A stretch of DNA of 22,098 bases from Candidatus Eiseniibacteriota bacterium (GTDB taxonomy: Bacteria > Arandabacterota > Arandabacteria > JAGLYR01): NCBI GenBank assembly GCA_023132135.1, contig JAGLYR010000058.1:1-22098 (forward strand), in the 5' to 3' direction. Within the stretch, counting starts at the first letter, position 1. Each line of letters starts with the position of its first letter. The notes under the pieces were generated by a model. The model searched no databases and was not told the origin of the DNA. It saw only the letters and a program-made list of their open reading frames with translations. The position numbers and the translations under genes were made by a program. Of the stretch, positions 13,986 through 22,098 are shown piece by piece.

Positions 13986-14921
13986 TCACGCAGACCAGGC
14001 GCCAGTCCTTCCCAGTCCCTTCGCTTCCAGGAATTCGCGGCCTCTCACCACGTCATCTTCGGTGACCCGCGAGTGCAACTCCATTACTGTAAGCAGTTCT
14101 GGGGTCCACCAAGGCAAGATGGTATCGAAATCGAACTCCCCTGTTCCCGGGGCAATGTGGTCGTCGGGACCAATCATGTCATGAATGTGCATGCCGATCA
14201 GGCGACCGCGCGCTTTCTCGAGGTGATCGGTGTGATTTCGCAGGCCAATGAGGCTGTTGACTTCGGCGTGGCCAACGTCATGCCAATAGCCGACGACGCC
14301 GGGATCCGTTTCCGACAGGAACAGCTCCAGTTCCTCGGGCGAGGGAATCTGGCTGTAGTAGTACCGGTTCTCGAGCCCCAGCCGCAGGTCCAGGTCCGCC
14401 GCGACCGGCTGTAGATCAAGGATGCTCTTCAACACTTGCCCTGCGTATGCTTCACCTGCAAGTTGGCGCTCCTTCTTCAGCGCGCGCCTCAGTCGATCCG
14501 CCTCCGCTGAGTCTCCACTGCCCTTTCTCACGATATCGATAAGGCACCCCGGCGCTGTTTTCAGAGGAACAGTGCCCAGGTGAAGGACCACGGCTTCTGC
14601 GCCGACATCCTTCGCAATCCGCAGGGACCGCGTGGTCTTCGCAACCGCCACTCTCCTCTCGTCTTCATCCAGAGCAGACAGGAGAAACCGGTCCCCCCCA
14701 TCCGGTCCCGTCCCCTCACCGCGGATGAACGGGACATAGTTGTGGACTGAAACCACTCGAATATCCCCGACATCCACAGCCCTCATGACGTCTGCAAGCT
14801 GCACCTGGTTCAGCCTGTACTCGATCTCAATCGCTTCGAATCCAAGACCGCGAAACAGAGCGATGAGCTCTCGTCCGGTTGCGCACTGCTTTGAACGCCA
14901 GGATGTGGAAAGTGCAATCAC
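13986..14921 (-). CDS. Sugar isomerase/AP endonuclease-like TIM barrel protein
   Basis: This belongs to the xylose-isomerase-like TIM barrel family (AP_endonuc_2 type). From the GTG at 14921 (311 residues) the product begins IALSTSW and has beta-strand motifs in order: AIEIEY (30-35), VSVHNYVPF (58-66), VVLHLGT (111-117), LGLENRYY (181-188), GYWHDVGHAE (211-220), GMHIHDM (243-249), APGTGEFDF (257-265) and MELHS (280-284). Glu184, Asp215, His218, His247 and Glu281 fit a divalent metal site. An upstream GTG at 14960 would add 13 residues; neither start has a clear ribosome-binding site. It lies between the EF-G gene and yebC with no pathway partners, so the substrate cannot be named. Sugar or sugar-phosphate isomerase/epimerase is more likely than endonuclease IV. 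Confidence 0.82.
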   Translation of the reverse strand: MIALSTSWRSKQCATGRELIALFRGLGFEAIEIEYRLNQVQLADVMRAVDVGDIRVVSVHNYVPFIRGEGTGPDGGDRFLLSALDEDERRVAVAKTTRSLRIAKDVGAEAVVLHLGTVPLKTAPGCLIDIVRKGSGDSAEADRLRRALKKERQLAGEAYAGQVLKSILDLQPVAADLDLRLGLENRYYYSQIPSPEELELFLSETDPGVVGYWHDVGHAEVNSLIGLRNHTDHLEKARGRLIGMHIHDMIGPDDHIAPGTGEFDFDTILPWWTPELLTVMELHSRVTEDDVVRGREFLEAKGLGRTGAWSA

Positions 14922-15010
14922 TAGTGAGGAATCTCGCGAGTGGGATGAACAGGTAACCACTGGGAGGTCGCTGTCGGGCGGGGCTTCGCGTCATGCCTTT
15001 CGTCCCGCTC

Positions 15011-17098
15011 CTATTCGGCCTCCCGCTCCGCCTGAGCCTCTTCCTTTACCTTCTCCGCCAATTCCTTTGGGAGCTCTTCGTAGTGGGAAAACTCCTGCTC
15101 GTGGACTCCGCGGCCCTGGGTCATGGAACGAAGATGCGTGGAGTAGCGGTAGAGCTCGGCCAGCGGGACCGTGGCGCGCACCACCTGGAAATTGCCCTCG
15201 GCATCCATGCCCTGGATCTTGCCGCGCCGGCTGCTAAGGTCGCCCATCACGTCTCCCATGTAGTCCTCCGGAACCCGTACCTTGATCCGGTAGATCGGCT
15301 CCAGGAGGTACGGCTGCGCCTCCAGGAAACCTTTCCGGAAAGCCATGGAACCGGCCACCTTGAAGGAGTTCTCCGAGGAATCCACGTTGTGATAGGAACC
15401 ATCGTCCAGTATGACCTTGAGATCCACGACGGGGCGGTTGGCCAGGGGTCCCGACTTCAAGGGTTCGGCGATCCCCTTTTCGACCGCCGGGATGAACTTG
15501 CCGGGTACCGAGCCGCCGACGATGGCATTCACGAATTCGTAGCCTTCTCCGCGCGCCTGGGGTTCCAGCTTGAGCCAGACATCTCCGTACTGGCCCCTTC
15601 CCCCTGTCTGTTTCTTGTACTTGCCCTGAACACGCGCTGTGCCCTTGATGGTCTCACGATAGGGGATCTTGGGCTTTACCAATTCCACCTGGACACCGAA
15701 ACGTTCCTTCAGCCGCTTGGTCAGCACCTCCAGGTGGAGCTCGCCCAGGCCGGCGATGATGGTCTGGTGCAGAGCCGCATCCACCGTCAAGGAGAAAGTG
15801 GGATCTTCTTCCCTCAGTCGGGCCATTCCACCGGCAATCTTGTCTTCTTCACCTTTGGTGACCGCCCGGATGGCCGTCTCCATGACAGGTTTCGGGAAAT
15901 TGATTTCCGGCAAAAGGACGGGGAACTTCTGCTCACCAAGGGTATCGCCCGTCGCCGTATTCTTGAGCTTCACAGCAGCGCCGAAGTCACCGGCTACCAC
16001 TCGCGCAACTTCCTTCCTTTCCTTCCCGGCCACAGCATGGATCTGACCCGTCTTCTCGGAGGCGTCTTTCGTGTGGTTGTAGATTTCCGTCCCCGCCCCG
16101 AGCGTTCCCGAGTAGACCCGGAAAAGAGAGAGCTCGCCGACATGAGGTTCCGAGACCGTCTTGAACACAAAAGCGGCCAGCGGTCCGGAGGGCAAAGGCT
16201 CCAGCTCGGTCTTCTCCTCCGTACCCGGCTTGTTCCCCACCACGGTTCCCCGGTCCACCGGCGACGGAAGCAGTTGAGCGATTCCATCCATGACCTGCTT
16301 CACACCCCGATTGACCAACCCCGCGGCACAGTACACGGGGAACAGGGTCCGCCCGATCACGGCTCCGCGCATTCCAGAGGCAACGTCCTCATCGGACAGT
16401 TCCCCCGTCTCGAGGTACTTTTCCAACAGCGCATCATCGGACTCCGCCACCCGGTCGTAGATCTGGCTGCGGTACTCCTCCACCCGGGCGGCGTACTCCT
16501 CGGGCACGGCCTCTTCTGTCATGGAACCGTCGTCCTTGTCCCCGTAGCGGTAGGCCTTGCCGGCCAGGACATCAATGACGCCCACGAAGTTCTCCGCCCG
16601 ACCCCAGGGAATGCAGACGGCCACAGCCTGCGGTGAAATCCGGCTCCGGAAGCTCTCGAGGGCGGCATCGAAGTCCGCCTGTTCCTTGTCCATCCGGGAA
16701 ATCACGACAATGGCCGGTTGACCATTCTCGTCAATCTGCTGCCAGTTGAGATCGGTCCCCACTTCCACTCCGCCGTCACCGCGCACCAGGACAACGGCTG
16801 CATCCGCCACACGGATTCCGGCCCGAGTGTCACCGTAGAAGTCGCTGTATCCGGGAGTATCGATCAGGTTCAGTTTGCAGCCGTTCCACTCCATGTGGGT
16901 CAGCGTGAGGTTGATCGTGACCTTCCGCTCGATCTCGTCGGGTGCATAGTCCAAGAGGGAGCTGCCATCGTCGACCTTGCCGACTCGATTCGTCATGCCG
17001 GCGTTGAAGAGCATAGCATCCATCAGCGAGGTCTTACCCACGCCGCTATGCCCGAGCACGACAGCGTTTCTGATATCCTTGGGTTCATATTCCTTCAA
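15011..17098 (-). CDS. EF-G-like translational GTPase (EF-G2/FusA2 type)
   Basis: This 695-residue protein has the five-domain EF-G layout: GTPase domain (about 1-290) with P-loop GHSGVGKTS (16-24), DTPGYSDF (80-87), domain II, domains III-V with GGRGQYGDV in domain IV and DGSYHNVDSSENSFKVAGSMA near the tip. DTPGY in place of DTPGH, the divergent P-loop and the domain IV sequence place it with the EF-G2-like paralogues, not with canonical FusA. The G4 motif is SRMD (134-137) instead of NKMD, which could weaken guanine recognition. The start is TTG at 17098, supported by GAAGGAGGA nine bases upstream. A canonical fusA is expected elsewhere. The C-terminal 25 residues are a charged E/K/A tail. 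It may act in elongation, recycling or stress; its role is unproven. Confidence 0.92.
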   Translation of the reverse strand: MKEYEPKDIRNAVVLGHSGVGKTSLMDAMLFNAGMTNRVGKVDDGSSLLDYAPDEIERKVTINLTLTHMEWNGCKLNLIDTPGYSDFYGDTRAGIRVADAAVVLVRGDGGVEVGTDLNWQQIDENGQPAIVVISRMDKEQADFDAALESFRSRISPQAVAVCIPWGRAENFVGVIDVLAGKAYRYGDKDDGSMTEEAVPEEYAARVEEYRSQIYDRVAESDDALLEKYLETGELSDEDVASGMRGAVIGRTLFPVYCAAGLVNRGVKQVMDGIAQLLPSPVDRGTVVGNKPGTEEKTELEPLPSGPLAAFVFKTVSEPHVGELSLFRVYSGTLGAGTEIYNHTKDASEKTGQIHAVAGKERKEVARVVAGDFGAAVKLKNTATGDTLGEQKFPVLLPEINFPKPVMETAIRAVTKGEEDKIAGGMARLREEDPTFSLTVDAALHQTIIAGLGELHLEVLTKRLKERFGVQVELVKPKIPYRETIKGTARVQGKYKKQTGGRGQYGDVWLKLEPQARGEGYEFVNAIVGGSVPGKFIPAVEKGIAEPLKSGPLANRPVVDLKVILDDGSYHNVDSSENSFKVAGSMAFRKGFLEAQPYLLEPIYRIKVRVPEDYMGDVMGDLSSRRGKIQGMDAEGNFQVVRATVPLAELYRYSTHLRSMTQGRGVHEQEFSHYEELPKELAEKVKEEAQAEREAE

Positions 17099-17124
17099 GA
17101 CACAAGTCCTCCTTCACCAGTCAA

Positions 17125-17154
17125 CAGCAGGGATTCATGAATAATTCAGGCTAG
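17125..17154 (+). repeat. 30-bp dispersed repeat, copy 2 (divergent intergenic region)
   Basis: This copy differs from 88-117 at one position (t for c at 17146), and flanking sequence does not match. The palindrome attcatgaat is at 17133-17142. The change turns the ggatt/aatcc arm pair into ggatt/aattc, which still pairs through a G-U wobble in plus-strand RNA but not in minus-strand RNA. On the minus strand its end forms the -10 box (TAGCCT) of the candidate EF-G promoter, and the palindrome would lie at the transcription start. Together with the promoter it fills most of the 161-base gap between the two divergent genes. Confidence 0.8.
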
Positions 17155-17176
17155 CAGACCGGAAATGAGGTGTCAA
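17148..17176 (-). promoter_or_regulatory. Candidate promoter of the EF-G2 gene
   Basis: On the minus strand a perfect -35 box TTGACA (17171-17176) stands 17 bases from TAGCCT (17148-17153), preceded by TGC as an extended -10. Predicted initiation near 17141 leaves a 43-base leader with a strong ribosome-binding site before the TTG start at 17098. The -10 box falls within the 30-bp repeat, so the repeat contributes to the promoter or overlies an operator. Confidence 0.6.
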
Positions 17177-17259
17177 TAGCGTTCTCGACAACGTTTCTGT
17201 TGCCTTCCTCAGCCGGATGTAGTGAATTCAGTCAGGACACCCAACATGGAAACCGCTCT

Positions 17260-18837
17260 ATGATTACGACAGACCGTGGACTTCCCAAGCTCCGGTATGT
17301 GATCCTGGTTTCCGCAGTTCTGGTGGTCCTCGCCCACTGGCTGCAGGACACAACGGGACTGAGCCTCGGAGACGAGGGTTACCTCTGGTATGGGACTCTT
17401 CGCACAGCGGAGGGGGATGTTCCAATCCGGGATTTTCGCTCCTACGATCCGGGGAGGTACTACTGGTGCGCAGCATTCTCGCATCTCTTCGGAGACGGAC
17501 TTCTCGGACTCCGAAGAAGCTCGGCCGTCTTTCAGCTCCTTGGACTCCTCTGTGGTCTTCTTGCCCTGACGCGCGTCATCCGGAACCCATTCCTCCTGGC
17601 CTCGTGCGGGATTTGTATGACCCTGTGGATGCAACCCGTGTACAAGCTGTTCGAACCTGCGGTCGCGATGATGGCCATCTGGTTTGGCGTGAGGTTGCTG
17701 GAGAAACCCTCCAAGGCGCACCTTCTCGTTGCCGGTATCTTCGTGGGACTGGCCGCCTTTGTGGGGCGAAACCTGGGACTCTATTGCTTCCTCGCTTTCG
17801 CCTGCATCATTCTCTACCTTCGCTTCAAGATGCACACCCTGCCGTTGTGGAGATCCGTCTGGATCTGGACAGTAGGGATTGTGGTCGGCTACTCGCCACA
17901 GCTGGCCATGATTGTTTTCATCCCGGGATACGCATCGAGCTTCATCGACTCAGTAGTGTTTCTCCACGCCAGAGGCGGCGCGAATCTTGGCCTGCCGGTG
18001 CCATGGCCGTGGAGCGCAAGTCTGTCGAGCTCAGGCCTGAGCATCGTCACGGAATTGTCTCTGGGGGTGAGCTTCCTTCTGTTTCCGATCTTTCTGGGGG
18101 GCTCGGTGGCCTACCTTCTTCTCGCCCCAAGGCACCGAATTGCAGAAAGGCACCTGCTCGTGGCATGTTTGTTCGTAGGGCTTTTCTACTCTCACCATGC
18201 CTTCTCCCGCGCTGAGCTCTACCACCTCAGCGGTGCGATTCATCCAGTTCTCATGGGACTGATGGCGGCGGCGTTCATTCCGGGAAAGCAATACCGGCGG
18301 GCAATCCTGCCGGCGGTGCTCATCGCTGCTACGTTACCTTCGGCCACCGGTGGAATATCTGTCCTCCAAAGACTGCGCTTGCCTGAGAAGAAATTCGTCC
18401 TTGCCGACATACGGGGCGATTCGGTCTGGATCTCCCGGCGTAAGGCGCACCTGCTGAACAGTACCCAAGACCTTGTCAAGGAACGGGTCTCGGCGGAGGA
18501 GAGCATTCTCATTGCTCCACACGAGACGGTCCTCTACCCCATGCTGGGGCGCAAAGCGCCCATCTGGGACCCCTACCTCCTGTGGCCCCACACGGAGAAA
18601 AAGCAGGTCGAGATGATCGCGGATCTTGAGAAGAACAACACGCAGTGGGCCCTGGTCTTTTTCGGCGCCGTGGACAACACAGACGATCGCAGTCTCCGGA
18701 AAGCACAGCCTTTACTCTGGGCCTACCTGGCGCGTGAATTCGAACCTGTACCCGTGAGCGGCTTCACTCCCGATACGTCCTTGATGCGCCGGAAGGATTC
18801 GCAGGGATCAGAGACCAAACCGGAGTTGCCCCAATGA
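17260..18837 (+). CDS. Polytopic membrane protein, GT-C glycosyltransferase-like
   Basis: The 525-residue product has an N-terminal membrane segment (about 12-27), a first extracytoplasmic loop with the acidic motif LSLGDEGYLWYG (35-46) and VPIRDFRSYDPGRYYW (54-69), about ten more hydrophobic segments to residue 360, and a soluble C-terminal part of about 150 residues. An Asp/Glu pair in the first loop after TM1 is typical of GT-C enzymes, which use polyprenyl-phosphate sugars. The family resemblance is by topology and motif only. The ATG at 17260 is chosen because it starts just before TM1; a GTG at 17170 would add a 30-residue non-hydrophobic extension overlapping the promoter region. It leads a four-gene operon, with an ATGA overlap to the next gene. 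Donor and acceptor cannot be named. Confidence 0.75.
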   Translation: MITTDRGLPKLRYVILVSAVLVVLAHWLQDTTGLSLGDEGYLWYGTLRTAEGDVPIRDFRSYDPGRYYWCAAFSHLFGDGLLGLRRSSAVFQLLGLLCGLLALTRVIRNPFLLASCGICMTLWMQPVYKLFEPAVAMMAIWFGVRLLEKPSKAHLLVAGIFVGLAAFVGRNLGLYCFLAFACIILYLRFKMHTLPLWRSVWIWTVGIVVGYSPQLAMIVFIPGYASSFIDSVVFLHARGGANLGLPVPWPWSASLSSSGLSIVTELSLGVSFLLFPIFLGGSVAYLLLAPRHRIAERHLLVACLFVGLFYSHHAFSRAELYHLSGAIHPVLMGLMAAAFIPGKQYRRAILPAVLIAATLPSATGGISVLQRLRLPEKKFVLADIRGDSVWISRRKAHLLNSTQDLVKERVSAEESILIAPHETVLYPMLGRKAPIWDPYLLWPHTEKKQVEMIADLEKNNTQWALVFFGAVDNTDDRSLRKAQPLLWAYLAREFEPVPVSGFTPDTSLMRRKDSQGSETKPELPQ

Positions 18838-19835
18838 CGGATGAGAGAAGCGATCCTAACCGCAAGAAGATCATCGGCATGCTGAAGCTGTGCGTCAGCG
18901 CCGTCCTGCTGCTCATTGTCTGGCGCAGCGCTGCATCCGGGGGAGATCTCGTCGAGACCTTGCGCGGGGCGAACCCCCTGCTGTTGGTTGTCGCTGCAGC
19001 GACTTTCGCCGCGGGGCAGGCGGTCGCGGCACTCCGGCTCCACTACATCCTGCTCAGACTCCGGCGCCGCGTGGGTTTCCCTACCGTCCTGAGAGCTCAT
19101 TTCATCGGCATCTGGTTCAATCAGCTGCTGCCCACGGGATTCGGCGGCGACATCGTGAAACTCCTTGTGCTTCGCCGGCCCGGCGACACTCTTCGTTTCA
19201 CGCGAGCTGTTCTCCTTGGGCGGGCTTTCGGACTAACCGCGCTGCTCCTCGCTGCCATCCTCCTGGTGCCTTTCTACGGTACCGTATTGACCAGAACCCG
19301 CCCCTTCCATGCCATCGCCCTGGTATCCCTGGCCGGTCTTGCGGGCCTCGGAATCGGGGTTATCGTGGCCGGGAACCGGAATCTCACAGGGAAACTCGCC
19401 CGGCCACTCAAGTTCATCTTCCTTCTTCTCCAGGACATGAGACGTTTTGCGCGGGGACGCCCGTTCGTAGAGCAAGTGGTAACTTCGGGCCTGGTGGTCC
19501 TCTCGGTTGTTGCCTGCTTCGTGATTCTCGGTTGGGCTCTGGGACGCCCGATTGGATTCGCCACCTGCCTGGTCATCGTACCGCCCATCATTGTTTCCAT
19601 GCACCTGCCGCTGTCCTACGGCGGTTGGGGTATCCGGGAGGTGGGAGCCGTAGCACTTCTTCCTTTCGGGGGCATACCGCCCGATATCGCGTTTCTCATG
19701 TCGCTGTTGTACGGACTGGTTATCCTGGTATCCGGCCTCGCGGGTCTGGTTCTCTGGCACATGCCCGGCTCACGCCGTCTCACTCGCGGGGGAAACCCCG
19801 TGAGGGACAAACCATCCACAGAGGACGCAGCGTAG
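18834..19835 (+). CDS. LPG_synthase_TM (AglD/YbhN, UPF0104) family membrane protein
   Basis: The 333-residue integral membrane protein resembles the transmembrane domain of lysylphosphatidylglycerol synthase (MprF) and stand-alone AglD/YbhN proteins. It has 7-8 hydrophobic segments, with the conserved FNQLLPTGFGGDIVKLL (about residues 94-110) and PLSYGGWGIREVGAVALLP in the last third, both hallmarks of the family. No cytoplasmic aminoacyl-transfer domain is present, so lysyl transfer is not implied. Related proteins are discussed as lipid flippases or polyprenol-glycan processing factors. The ATG at 18834 overlaps the preceding stop as ATGA. The next gene starts 37 bases after its end. Coupling to a GT-C-like protein and an oxidoreductase suggests lipid-linked glycan handling, which is inference. 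Confidence 0.87.
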   Translation: MTDERSDPNRKKIIGMLKLCVSAVLLLIVWRSAASGGDLVETLRGANPLLLVVAAATFAAGQAVAALRLHYILLRLRRRVGFPTVLRAHFIGIWFNQLLPTGFGGDIVKLLVLRRPGDTLRFTRAVLLGRAFGLTALLLAAILLVPFYGTVLTRTRPFHAIALVSLAGLAGLGIGVIVAGNRNLTGKLARPLKFIFLLLQDMRRFARGRPFVEQVVTSGLVVLSVVACFVILGWALGRPIGFATCLVIVPPIIVSMHLPLSYGGWGIREVGAVALLPFGGIPPDIAFLMSLLYGLVILVSGLAGLVLWHMPGSRRLTRGGNPVRDKPSTEDAA

Positions 19836-19872
19836 GTCGGAGAACCTGTGCACATTTCAAACCGGGGGAGAC

Positions 19873-21156
19873 ATGAGTCCATATGAGGAAAACGGCAATG
19901 TTCTGATCCTGGGCGGAGGCTACGCGGGACTCGCAGCGGCCTATCGACTCGGGCGGCACGGCATCCCCAGCACGCTCATCGAGGCTCAGCCCAAGGTGGG
20001 TGGGCTGGCCGCGTGCTCCACCATTGACGGAGTCGCTGTCGAGCATTTCTACCACCACATCAAACCGGAAGACGGACACGTGATCAGCCTGATCGAGGAA
20101 TTGGGCCTGGGTTACGGCCTCCATTGGGCCGACACGCGGATGGGATTCTACATCGATGGCAGCTTTCACCCTTTCAGCACACCCATGGACCTGCTCCGCT
20201 TCTCCCCCCTATCGCTTATGGACCGCTTTCGGTTTGCATGGGGTGTGTTCAAGGCCAAGCGGACAGAGGGAAAGACGCTCGAGGGCATGAACGCTGAGGA
20301 GTGGGTAGTTCGCGAATGGGGCCGCAGTGTCTATGAGCGCATCATGCGCCCGATGCTTATGAATAAGTTCGGCATTCCACCGGCGTGGATATCCGCCGGC
20401 TTCCTGCAAGGGCGGATCAAGGGGCTTTCGTCTGCGAAATCGAGCGCACGGGGAGGCGAGCAGCTCGCATACCTCCGTGGGAGCCTCCAGACCCTCACCG
20501 ACCGGCTGGAGGAGGAAATCCGGAACACCTGTCACATCAGGGTCAGTACACCGATCGAACGGATCGATACCTCCCCGGACGGCTTTCATGTGCACAGTGG
20601 CGACGAGGAGTTCACGGCCCCGTTCGTAGTGAACACACTCCCGCTCACGGTGTTCGAGAGCATTCGAAAGAACTTCGAGTTCCGCACCTCCATTCAGTAC
20701 CAGGCTGTGGCGTGCGGGGTGTTCTCCATCGAGGAGGAACTGACCCCTCTCTACTGGATCAACATCCTTGACGATGACGTTACGTTTCGCGTATTCGTGA
20801 ACCAATCGAGAATGGATGAGTATTCTCATCCGATCGTCTATTGCGCGAACTACCTGCGGGCGGACGATCCTCTCTTTCGAAGACCCGATGACGAGATCCT
20901 CGATCTCTATATCGGGAGCATGAAGAAGATGTTTGGACGAGTGACGCTTCGCGAGGGACGGCTCTTCCGTTCCCGGCATGCCACGCCTGTGTTCGACCGG
21001 GATTTCGCTGCCAGGACAGCCAACCTGGATGACTGCGTGCCGGGCATGGTCTTCGCAGGGAACATCAAGGTCTACCCTTACAGCCGCACCGTCAGCAGCG
21101 TCATCGGCACCGGCTTTGCCGCCGCTGATCGCATCCTCGAAGGGAGTCGACCATGA
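19873..21156 (+). CDS. FAD-dependent oxidoreductase, amine-oxidase/PPOX-like fold
   Basis: This 427-residue protein has an N-terminal FAD-binding Rossmann motif (VLILGGGYAGLAAAYRLG, glycines 14-16 and 19), Glu37 for the adenine ribose, and the second-nucleotide segment PKVGGLAA. A conserved block follows: HFYHHI, GFYIDGSFHPFSTPMDLLRF and SLMDRFRFAWGV. The C-terminus has the FAD-closing motif MVFAGN...TGFAAADRIL. This matches COG1232-like oxidoreductases often found with glycosyltransferases, not haem synthesis. The ATG at 19873 has a GGGGGAGA ribosome-binding site. It overlaps the next gene as ATGA. No membrane segment is seen, so it is cytoplasmic or peripheral. The substrate is unknown: a polyprenyl, sterol-like or sugar-linked compound are all possible. 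Confidence 0.85.
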   Translation: MSPYEENGNVLILGGGYAGLAAAYRLGRHGIPSTLIEAQPKVGGLAACSTIDGVAVEHFYHHIKPEDGHVISLIEELGLGYGLHWADTRMGFYIDGSFHPFSTPMDLLRFSPLSLMDRFRFAWGVFKAKRTEGKTLEGMNAEEWVVREWGRSVYERIMRPMLMNKFGIPPAWISAGFLQGRIKGLSSAKSSARGGEQLAYLRGSLQTLTDRLEEEIRNTCHIRVSTPIERIDTSPDGFHVHSGDEEFTAPFVVNTLPLTVFESIRKNFEFRTSIQYQAVACGVFSIEEELTPLYWINILDDDVTFRVFVNQSRMDEYSHPIVYCANYLRADDPLFRRPDDEILDLYIGSMKKMFGRVTLREGRLFRSRHATPVFDRDFAARTANLDDCVPGMVFAGNIKVYPYSRTVSSVIGTGFAAADRILEGSRP

Positions 21157-22031
21157 GACAACCGATGGTTCCGATCCTGATCCTCATCGTGCTGGCTGCC
21201 CTGTCTTGCCAGGAACGTGAATCTACCTCACAGGGCCCCGCTGAGGGAACGGTCTCATCCGCCGACGGCCTGGGAATCCATTACCGCACCAGGGGGAGCG
21301 GCGAGCCGGCGCTGGTCTTTGTTCATGGATGGTCCTGTGACGGTAGCTACTGGACCGCCCAGTGGGATCATTTTACAGCGAATCACCAGGTGGTCACCAT
21401 CGATCTGGGCGGCCACGGACAGTCGGGCCTGGGCCGTGGACGTTGGAGCATGGTCGCATTCGGCGCCGATGTGCGCGCCGTGGTGGAGAAGCTGGACCTC
21501 GACGATGTTGTTCTCATCGGCCACTCTATGGGCGGCGCCATTATCGTGGAGGCAACCCTCGGGATGCCGGGGCGCGTGCGCGGGCTCGTGGGCGTGGACA
21601 ACTTCCAGACACCGTACCTGGATATGACCCCGCAGCAGATTGAGGATTTCGTAAGCCGGATGCAGGTGAACTTCGTCACGAATACCGAAGATTGGGTCAG
21701 GAGTATGTTCCCGCCCGGGGCAGACCCCCTCATGGTGGACAAAGTCGCCAAGGACATGGCGTCCGCACCGCCGGAAGTCGCGACCAGCGCCCTGCGCGAA
21801 TTGCTCATCTGGTACAGCACGCAGGCTCCCGCGGCGCTCGAGAAGCTGAGGGTCCCGCTCCAGTGCATCAGCTCCGACAAGCACCCGACTGATGTCGAAG
21901 GGATCTCTGCGATCGTGGACAGGTACGAGCTGCGTCTCATGCCCGGCCACGGCCATTTTCTCATGCTCGAGGATCCAGCGACCTTCAACTCCCTCTTGGA
22001 GGACGCTCTCGACTGCCTCGCCACCAAGTAG
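21153..22031 (+). CDS. Secreted alpha/beta hydrolase, probable lipoprotein
   Basis: The 292-residue protein begins with a signal peptide whose hydrophobic core (about 6-18, VPILILIVLAALS) ends at Cys19 in the lipobox-like AALSC, so anchoring as a lipoprotein is likely. The alpha/beta hydrolase fold follows: oxyanion segment LVFVHGWSCDGSYW (54-67), IDLGGHGQSG (83-92), nucleophile elbow GHSMGG (123-128, Ser125), probable acid Asp242 in ISSDKHPTD, and catalytic His268 in PGHGHF. The ATG at 21153 overlaps the preceding stop as ATGA. It closes the four-gene operon, so its substrate may be an ester or lipid made by the upstream proteins. The family is too broad to assign a substrate. Confidence 0.88.
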   Translation: MRQPMVPILILIVLAALSCQERESTSQGPAEGTVSSADGLGIHYRTRGSGEPALVFVHGWSCDGSYWTAQWDHFTANHQVVTIDLGGHGQSGLGRGRWSMVAFGADVRAVVEKLDLDDVVLIGHSMGGAIIVEATLGMPGRVRGLVGVDNFQTPYLDMTPQQIEDFVSRMQVNFVTNTEDWVRSMFPPGADPLMVDKVAKDMASAPPEVATSALRELLIWYSTQAPAALEKLRVPLQCISSDKHPTDVEGISAIVDRYELRLMPGHGHFLMLEDPATFNSLLEDALDCLATK

Positions 22032-22047
22032 CCTGCATTTCTCACCA

Positions 22048-22079
22048 GGTTTCTGCTACGGGGCCTGGCCCAAGAAACC
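22048..22079 (+). terminator. Hairpin after the operon, possible terminator
   Basis: Seven-base arms ggtttct (22048-22054) and agaaacc (22073-22079) enclose an inner palindrome gggcctggccc (22061-22071), 16 bases after the hydrolase stop codon. The position suits termination of the plus-strand operon. No T-run follows, so Rho-independent action is unproven. Confidence 0.4.
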
Positions 22080-22098
22080 GTTCGTCCTGAGCCCGTCG
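22078..22098 (+). repeat. Left half of a dispersed palindromic repeat, cut by window end
   Basis: The last 21 bases, ending in ttcgtcctgagcccgtcg, match from memory the left half of a palindromic intergenic repeat seen in many unrelated bacterial genomes, whose right half would read gaaggacgaa or similar. Only half is present, so the palindrome cannot be confirmed here. The remaining 22032-22077 holds the hairpin above and nothing coding. Confidence 0.45.

Follow-up and report, generated by a model that had tools for sequence, protein, structure and literature searches.

Three-component glycosylation systems consist of a donor synthase, a flippase and a GT-C-type glycosyltransferase (PMC11127046, PMC7389260). 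Proteins of the PF03706 family have been predicted to act as flippases of glycosylation pathways and have PMT/STT3-like and AglD-like genes as archaeal neighbours (PMC5898192); in the gpgSDF operon and, by analogy, in hexSDF, the predicted flippase comes from the same family (PMC12713373). Here we describe a four-gene operon on contig JAGLYR010000058.1 (GenBank assembly GCA_023132135.1) of a Candidatus Eiseniibacteriota bacterium. The whole stretch analysed, called the window below, is 22,098 nucleotides long and represents one complete contig of a 3.4 Mb genome in 345 contigs. In our preferred interpretation, which we regard as somewhat more probable than not, genes 1 to 3 serve glycosylation outside the cytoplasm as a module of the three-component type that includes a flavoenzyme (gene 3), which would alter the donor, and gene 4 encodes a hydrolase added in this lineage. 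The new point is a recurring flavoenzyme beside sugar-transfer machinery of a known kind. The features of the locus are as follows.

17099-17259, no strand: divergent intergenic region between the EF-G gene and the operon, the presumed promoter, from coordinates only
17260-18837, plus strand: gene 1, 525 amino acids, divergent GT-C-type membrane glycosyltransferase (candidate) with 8 or more predicted transmembrane segments
18834-19835, plus strand: gene 2, 333 amino acids, YbhN/AglD2/UPF0104-type putative flippase for a lipid or lipid-linked sugar, about 7-8 transmembrane segments
19873-21156, plus strand: gene 3, 427 amino acids, PRK07233-family FAD oxidoreductase, no transmembrane segment
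21153-22031, plus strand: gene 4, 292 amino acids, lipoprotein-type alpha/beta hydrolase
22032-22098, no strand: 67 bases 3' of gene 4, up to the contig end

The listing of open reading frames in the window confirmed what the original prediction, made from the letters of this DNA, had said of the layout: four co-directional, tightly coupled genes at these coordinates, divergent from a housekeeping block. Genes 1 and 2 and genes 3 and 4 overlap in an ATGA, genes 2 and 3 are separated by a 37-base gap, and each of genes 2, 3 and 4 has a Shine-Dalgarno-like run of purines ahead of it; an alternative start for gene 1 is the GTG at 17170. The G+C content at the three codon positions is 0.60-0.67, 0.44-0.47 and 0.71-0.78 in the four genes, and because these values agree with those of the neighbouring EF-G gene we take the four to be genuine coding genes. 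Since the contig stops 67 bases after gene 4, the operon may extend past 22031.

The families proposed for genes 2, 3 and 4 (PF03706, the COG1232-like PRK07233 and an alpha/beta hydrolase with a lipobox-like start) were likewise borne out. Gene 2 encodes a multi-transmembrane protein that matches PF03706 (LPG_synthase_TM) with an E value of 1.1e-24 and 87.8 bits, against a gathering cutoff of 33.4, and belongs to that family; its product is predicted to be a flippase for a lipid or a lipid-linked sugar. Gene 3 scores 350.7 bits with NF005560/PRK07233 (cutoff 252), residues 9-423 aligning on positions 2-430 of 435, and is therefore a member. It carries a nucleotide-binding GxGxxG followed by an acidic residue (G14, G16, G19, E37). 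In a 47-sequence alignment E57, YHH60-62, K165, E196, Y200, Y294-W295, Y323 and Y327 are invariant, and N297 and R405 nearly so.

The structure model of gene 3 is good (pLDDT 92.8) and has the amine-oxidase/PPOX/phytoene-desaturase/UGM fold. The comparison with COG1232-type oxidoreductases that the original prediction had proposed thus returned the expected superfamily, and it singled out no substrate: the VIA-align Z scores are 35.7 for PPOX, 35.6 for phytoene desaturase, 34.5 for MAO-A and 32.8 for UGM (4dsg), and because there is no clear favourite among them the fold does not name what the enzyme acts on. A partial sequence match to UGM (1i8t) was also found, while PPOX and phytoene desaturase exceed UGM 4dsg in Z. 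The hydroxysqualene dehydroxylase HpnE gives 79.6 bits over the full length of gene 3, against a cutoff of 283, which places gene 3 outside that family. DprE1, an FAD enzyme generally assigned to another fold, is absent from the Foldseek and VIA-align matches listed for the model, which does not exclude it. No relative found shares more than 36% identity with gene 3, which sits in the tree on a long branch among distant neighbours; a single-protein scan of genome contigs with it gave no matches.

Searches of Pfam and NCBIfam gave gene 1 no match of its own; for PMT_2 there was none at E≤1, which leaves gene 1 below the gathering cutoff. Two homologues (L089 and L092) match PMT_2 weakly, with 24.1 and 19.3 bits under a cutoff of 26.1. 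When eleven homologues from the same genome, the class and other phyla were aligned (18-23% identity), Glu39 was invariant and Asp38 near-invariant, directly after the first transmembrane segment and in the first outer loop; further conserved residues were Asp58, invariant in the same loop, Pro64-Gly65, Arg85 and His322. A comparison by hhalign of this family with the Chloroflexota PMT_2 GT-C proteins that precede YbhN-PRK07233 gave 97.2% probability and an E value of 4.7e-11 over 154 columns, covering the first outer loop and the helices after it. Gene 1 therefore shows both marks of a GT-C enzyme that we looked for, an acidic D/E motif after the first transmembrane segment and a profile relation to PMT_2 GT-C proteins. 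Because of this motif, the weak PMT_2 matches of the homologues and the profile-profile relation, the gene 1 product is likely to be a GT-C-type enzyme. A profile search of the PDB with the family returned only chance-level matches.

We then turn to how often these genes keep company. The four-gene set was sought in 386 sampled genomes and in 80 gene 3 loci, the latter from a narrower alignment of gene 3 relatives; only seven relatives represent the class of the source genome. The neighbourhood search gave a divided answer, as the exact set was found nowhere else in these genomes and loci and its pairs and trio recur. The gene 1-YbhN pair, with the same four-base ATGA overlap, is present in three class relatives (G003, G004 and G007), and the two genes also adjoin in G372, from another phylum. 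YbhN genes lie directly upstream of PRK07233 at 17 of 101 loci; at offsets 4-9 they occupy 3 of 652 positions (Fisher p 3e-13, indicative only, as are our other p values, since the loci were chosen by peptide patterns and are mutually related). The phyla concerned are Chloroflexota, Calditrichota, Bacillota, FCPU426, Pseudomonadota and Auribacterota, and on the gene 3 tree this adjacency requires at least seven changes. DPM1-like GT2 genes directly follow PRK07233 at 14/101 loci (8/652 at offsets 4-9), and large multi-transmembrane proteins occupy 29/202 of the directly adjoining positions (19/652 at offsets 4-9). All six matches to the gene 1 profile in 111 neighbourhoods directly adjoin PRK07233; they include two archaeal loci that also have YbhN and DUF2298.

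Fuller sets are found as well. The order of the window, GT-C (PMT_2), YbhN, PRK07233, is repeated in three Chloroflexota loci (L107, L112 and L114); an archaeal locus (L151) has PRK07233, GT-C, GT2, YbhN and DUF2298 in one run, and another (L106) has GT-C, PRK07233, YbhN and DUF2298. In a Clostridiaceae locus (L144), PRK07233 stands between GtrA and GT2 and beside a PMT/PMT_4TMC GT-C, that is, within a classical three-component set; by Pfam tally at least four Clostridiaceae loci are GtrA-positive, and individual checks covered GtrA in two and the full set in L144. The claim that a GT-C enzyme, a YbhN/AglD-type putative flippase and the flavoenzyme belong together is upheld by these data, each pair recurring and the trio occurring in window order in Chloroflexota.

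Several further arrangements were seen around PRK07233. The GtrA-PRK07233-GT2 arrangement with a PMT-type GT-C nearby was noted in Clostridiaceae and Thermoclostridium loci (L119, L144, L150, L155, L175); in the cultured Thermoclostridium caenicola DSM 19027 (L155) the gene 3 relative lies behind a large membrane protein and ahead of a GT2-sized gene. At L101, L116 and L125 a YbhN domain is part of a longer protein near PRK07233, and the L125 protein (882 amino acids) also contains a fused GT2 domain, so that a single chain would combine donor synthesis with the presumed flipping. A clade of 13 PRK07233 proteins from ANME-2/Methanosarcinales (for example L103:1011-3400) lies directly behind a CcmF_C/ResB-like membrane protein of about 350 amino acids, a partner that hints at a different PRK07233 substrate in those archaea. 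The source genome itself has further GT-C clusters with YfhO, TMEM260-like proteins and gene 1 paralogues, on contigs C113 (L090), C29 (L091), C335 (L088) and C44 (L089), and two of these four carry YbhN genes.

In the mechanism that we propose, a DPM1/GtrB-like GT2, whose gene lies at another place in the genome, would make a polyprenyl-phosphate-sugar in the cytoplasm. The gene 3 flavoenzyme would change the donor ahead of flipping, acting on the lipid-linked sugar or on its nucleotide precursor, most probably by a redox reaction that turns the sugar into a keto-sugar, an epimer or another ring form. The YbhN-type protein of gene 2 would carry the polyprenyl-phosphate-sugar across the membrane, the GT-C enzyme of gene 1 would transfer the sugar to an outer acceptor (a glycan, a lipid or a protein), and the lipid-anchored outer hydrolase of gene 4 may trim or deacylate the product. 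The gene families, their coupling and the fact that the pairs and the trio recur are established; the direction of flow, the transport, the substrates, the acceptor and every chemical step we infer, and so too the step at which the original prediction had a compound built and oxidised inside the cell. A source for the donor would be at hand, as 14 GT2 matches, DPM1-like GT2s included, lie in other parts of the genome, the best of them 65% identical to the GT2 of the GT-C/YbhN cluster of G003.

A number of observations weigh against this interpretation. The structure model of gene 1, built with six sequences, is unusable (mean pLDDT 45.9), so that its GT-C-like nature, supported by profile and motif, has no confident structure behind it. 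Among the operon genes up to the contig end there is no GT2 or polyprenyl-phosphate-sugar synthase, and flippase action of YbhN on polyprenyl-phosphate-sugars is unproven in the literature found. Gene 3 does not accompany the gene 1-2 pair in the class relatives, which indicates that it is dispensable for the pair; there and in G372 the pair is followed by genes for a YfhO-type GT-C (assigned by Pfam in G003) or for further large membrane proteins. Moreover, 43 of 105 PRK07233 loci have no GT-C, YbhN or GT2 within three genes, and the 13 archaeal loci pair with the CcmF/ResB-like protein instead. Finally, by its profile scores gene 2 is not an orthologue of the PRK07233-adjacent YbhNs and is closer to YbhNs away from PRK07233: a hidden Markov model of the adjacent proteins gives gene 2 29.7 bits, compared to 68-81 for non-adjacent YbhNs of the same genome and class. 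Because gene 2 scores so low, common orthologous ancestry of the window trio and the Chloroflexota trio was rejected; the window trio is not a vertically kept copy, and the combination arose more than once.

This last point bears on whether genes 1 to 3 serve separate processes and are merely co-transcribed, a common GT-C/YbhN pair having been joined by chance to a mobile flavoenzyme gene and a lipoprotein gene. The uniqueness of the exact set in our data, the unlike YbhN subfamily, the solitary relatives of gene 4 and the long branch of gene 3 with its distant neighbours would all fit such an origin; however, PRK07233 is found again and again beside YbhN or GtrA and a GT-C, in several phyla and in Bacteria as well as Archaea, a pattern not expected by chance, and the starts at the window locus overlap, so we hold a chance join to be improbable. 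An alternative that keeps the genes together is a membrane-lipid modification cassette of the HexSDF/GpgSDF sort, in which gene 3 would act in the inner leaflet on the head group of a glycolipid or phospholipid, YbhN would flip the completed lipid and gene 1 would add a sugar to it outside. YbhN/AglD2 proteins are indeed the predicted flippases of the hexSDF and gpgSDF glycolipid operons (PMC12713373, PMC10128005), and several YbhN-PRK07233 loci of Chloroflexota and FCPU426 have no GT-C within three genes. Yet the combination of a cytosolic glycosyltransferase, a deacetylase and YbhN is not found here, there being no match to a GT4-type synthase or a deacetylase in the four genes, and a GT-C or a GT2 resembling polyprenyl-phosphate-sugar synthases often adjoins; we consider this cassette unlikely, if the least so of the alternatives. 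The flavoenzyme might also desaturate, reduce or dehydroxylate the isoprenoid chain of the carrier and so adjust this lipid for the flippase and the GT-C. Phytoene desaturase (5mog; Z 35.6) is among the best full-length solved relatives and HpnE scores next among the named NCBIfam families, but the fold is equally near PPOX, MAO and UGM and makes no choice, and E57, YHH60-62, K165, E196, Y200, N297 and R405 would better fit a polar or phosphate-bearing substrate than a bare polyene. We consider action on the isoprenoid chain quite improbable.

Returning to the glycosylation module, its wider implication is that PRK07233 might widely serve bacterial and archaeal three-component systems as a fourth component not described so far, epimerising, oxidising or ring-converting a polyprenyl-phosphate-linked sugar before YbhN or GtrA flips it to the GT-C; we offer this generalisation tentatively, as a possibility that we doubt more than we believe. 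Unusual sugars of unexplained synthesis are common in surface glycans, and because this flavoenzyme family repeatedly sits between flippase and GT-C/GT2 genes in unrelated phyla, it may provide an as yet unassigned enzymatic step on lipid-linked sugars. In the open-licence literature we found no paper that names PRK07233 and no description of an FAD oxidoreductase in flippase/GT-C operons, which is weak evidence of novelty.

Gene 4 stands apart. It matches PF12697 (E 7e-23) and also PF00561, has a hydrophobic N-terminal stretch ending in the lipobox-like LAALSC, and carries the nucleophile elbow GHSMGG. Relatives with 40-47% identity come from other phyla, three of them (L250, L253 and L254) likewise with lipobox-like signals; none was found in the class, and none of six neighbourhoods examined has a GT-C, YbhN or PRK07233 beside the relative. 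Its membership of the operon rests on the ATGA overlap in one genome, and it appears to be a local addition in this lineage. The proposal that the four genes form a complete pathway is thus not supported, in that the operon, up to the contig end, has no cytoplasmic polyprenyl-phosphate-sugar synthase, the nearest relatives of the hydrolase stand alone, and in the class relatives the gene 1-2 pair is trailed by YfhO-type GT-Cs or large membrane proteins, not by the flavoenzyme.

On the other side of the intergenic region, the divergent EF-G gene (15011-17098, minus strand) is followed by a housekeeping run that includes rplS, trmD, ffh, rsmB, fmt, tgt, queA, ruvB and a yebC-type gene. The EF-G gene scores 910 bits with PRK12740.1-5 and 697 bits with the general EF-G model and, judged on these scores, may be a second, EF-G2-like paralogue. 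Within the run, a 324-amino-acid open reading frame (13986-14960, minus strand) had no NCBIfam match at 1e-10.

Among the systems that the locus resembles, HexSDF/GpgSDF likewise couple a YbhN/AglD2 putative flippase to a cytosolic modifying enzyme (PMC10128005, PMC12713373), but there the partners are a cytosolic glycosyltransferase and a deacetylase and the product is a membrane glycolipid, whereas the window has a GT-C and a flavoenzyme. The archaeal arCOG00899 (UPF0104/PF03706)-GT-C-AglD neighbourhoods also place PF03706 beside a PMT/STT3-like GT-C and a GT2, although the part of PMC5898192 on which we rely mentions no PRK07233 partner. The mycobacterial DprE1/DprE2-Rv3789-Emb/Aft arabinan pathway (PMC11127046), with redox of a polyprenyl-phosphate-sugar, a flippase and a GT-C, would be an analogy in working; the likeness is one of logic and not of family, and the window operon has no DprE2-like SDR. 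Within the uncharacterised COG1232-like FAD enzymes of NF005560/PRK07233, gene 3 is a long-branch member by curated score. The closest comparison is with the three-component systems themselves. GtrA/GtrB/Gtr, the CsbB-type GT2/GtcA/YfhO system and the Citrobacter GT136 system (PMC11127046) likewise combine, within one operon, a GT-C with a small membrane protein as putative flippase, and genes 1 and 2, by their predicted functions, provide just this combination of flippase candidate and GT-C transferase, as a pair that is conserved in the class. A candidate donor-synthase GT2 is found elsewhere in the window genome, and such GT2s lie beside homologous sets. The window differs from these systems in that its flippase candidate belongs to PF03706 (YbhN) rather than to GtrA, MATE or SMR, and in that its operon, up to the contig end, has no donor synthase and has an additional PRK07233 flavoenzyme and a lipoprotein hydrolase.

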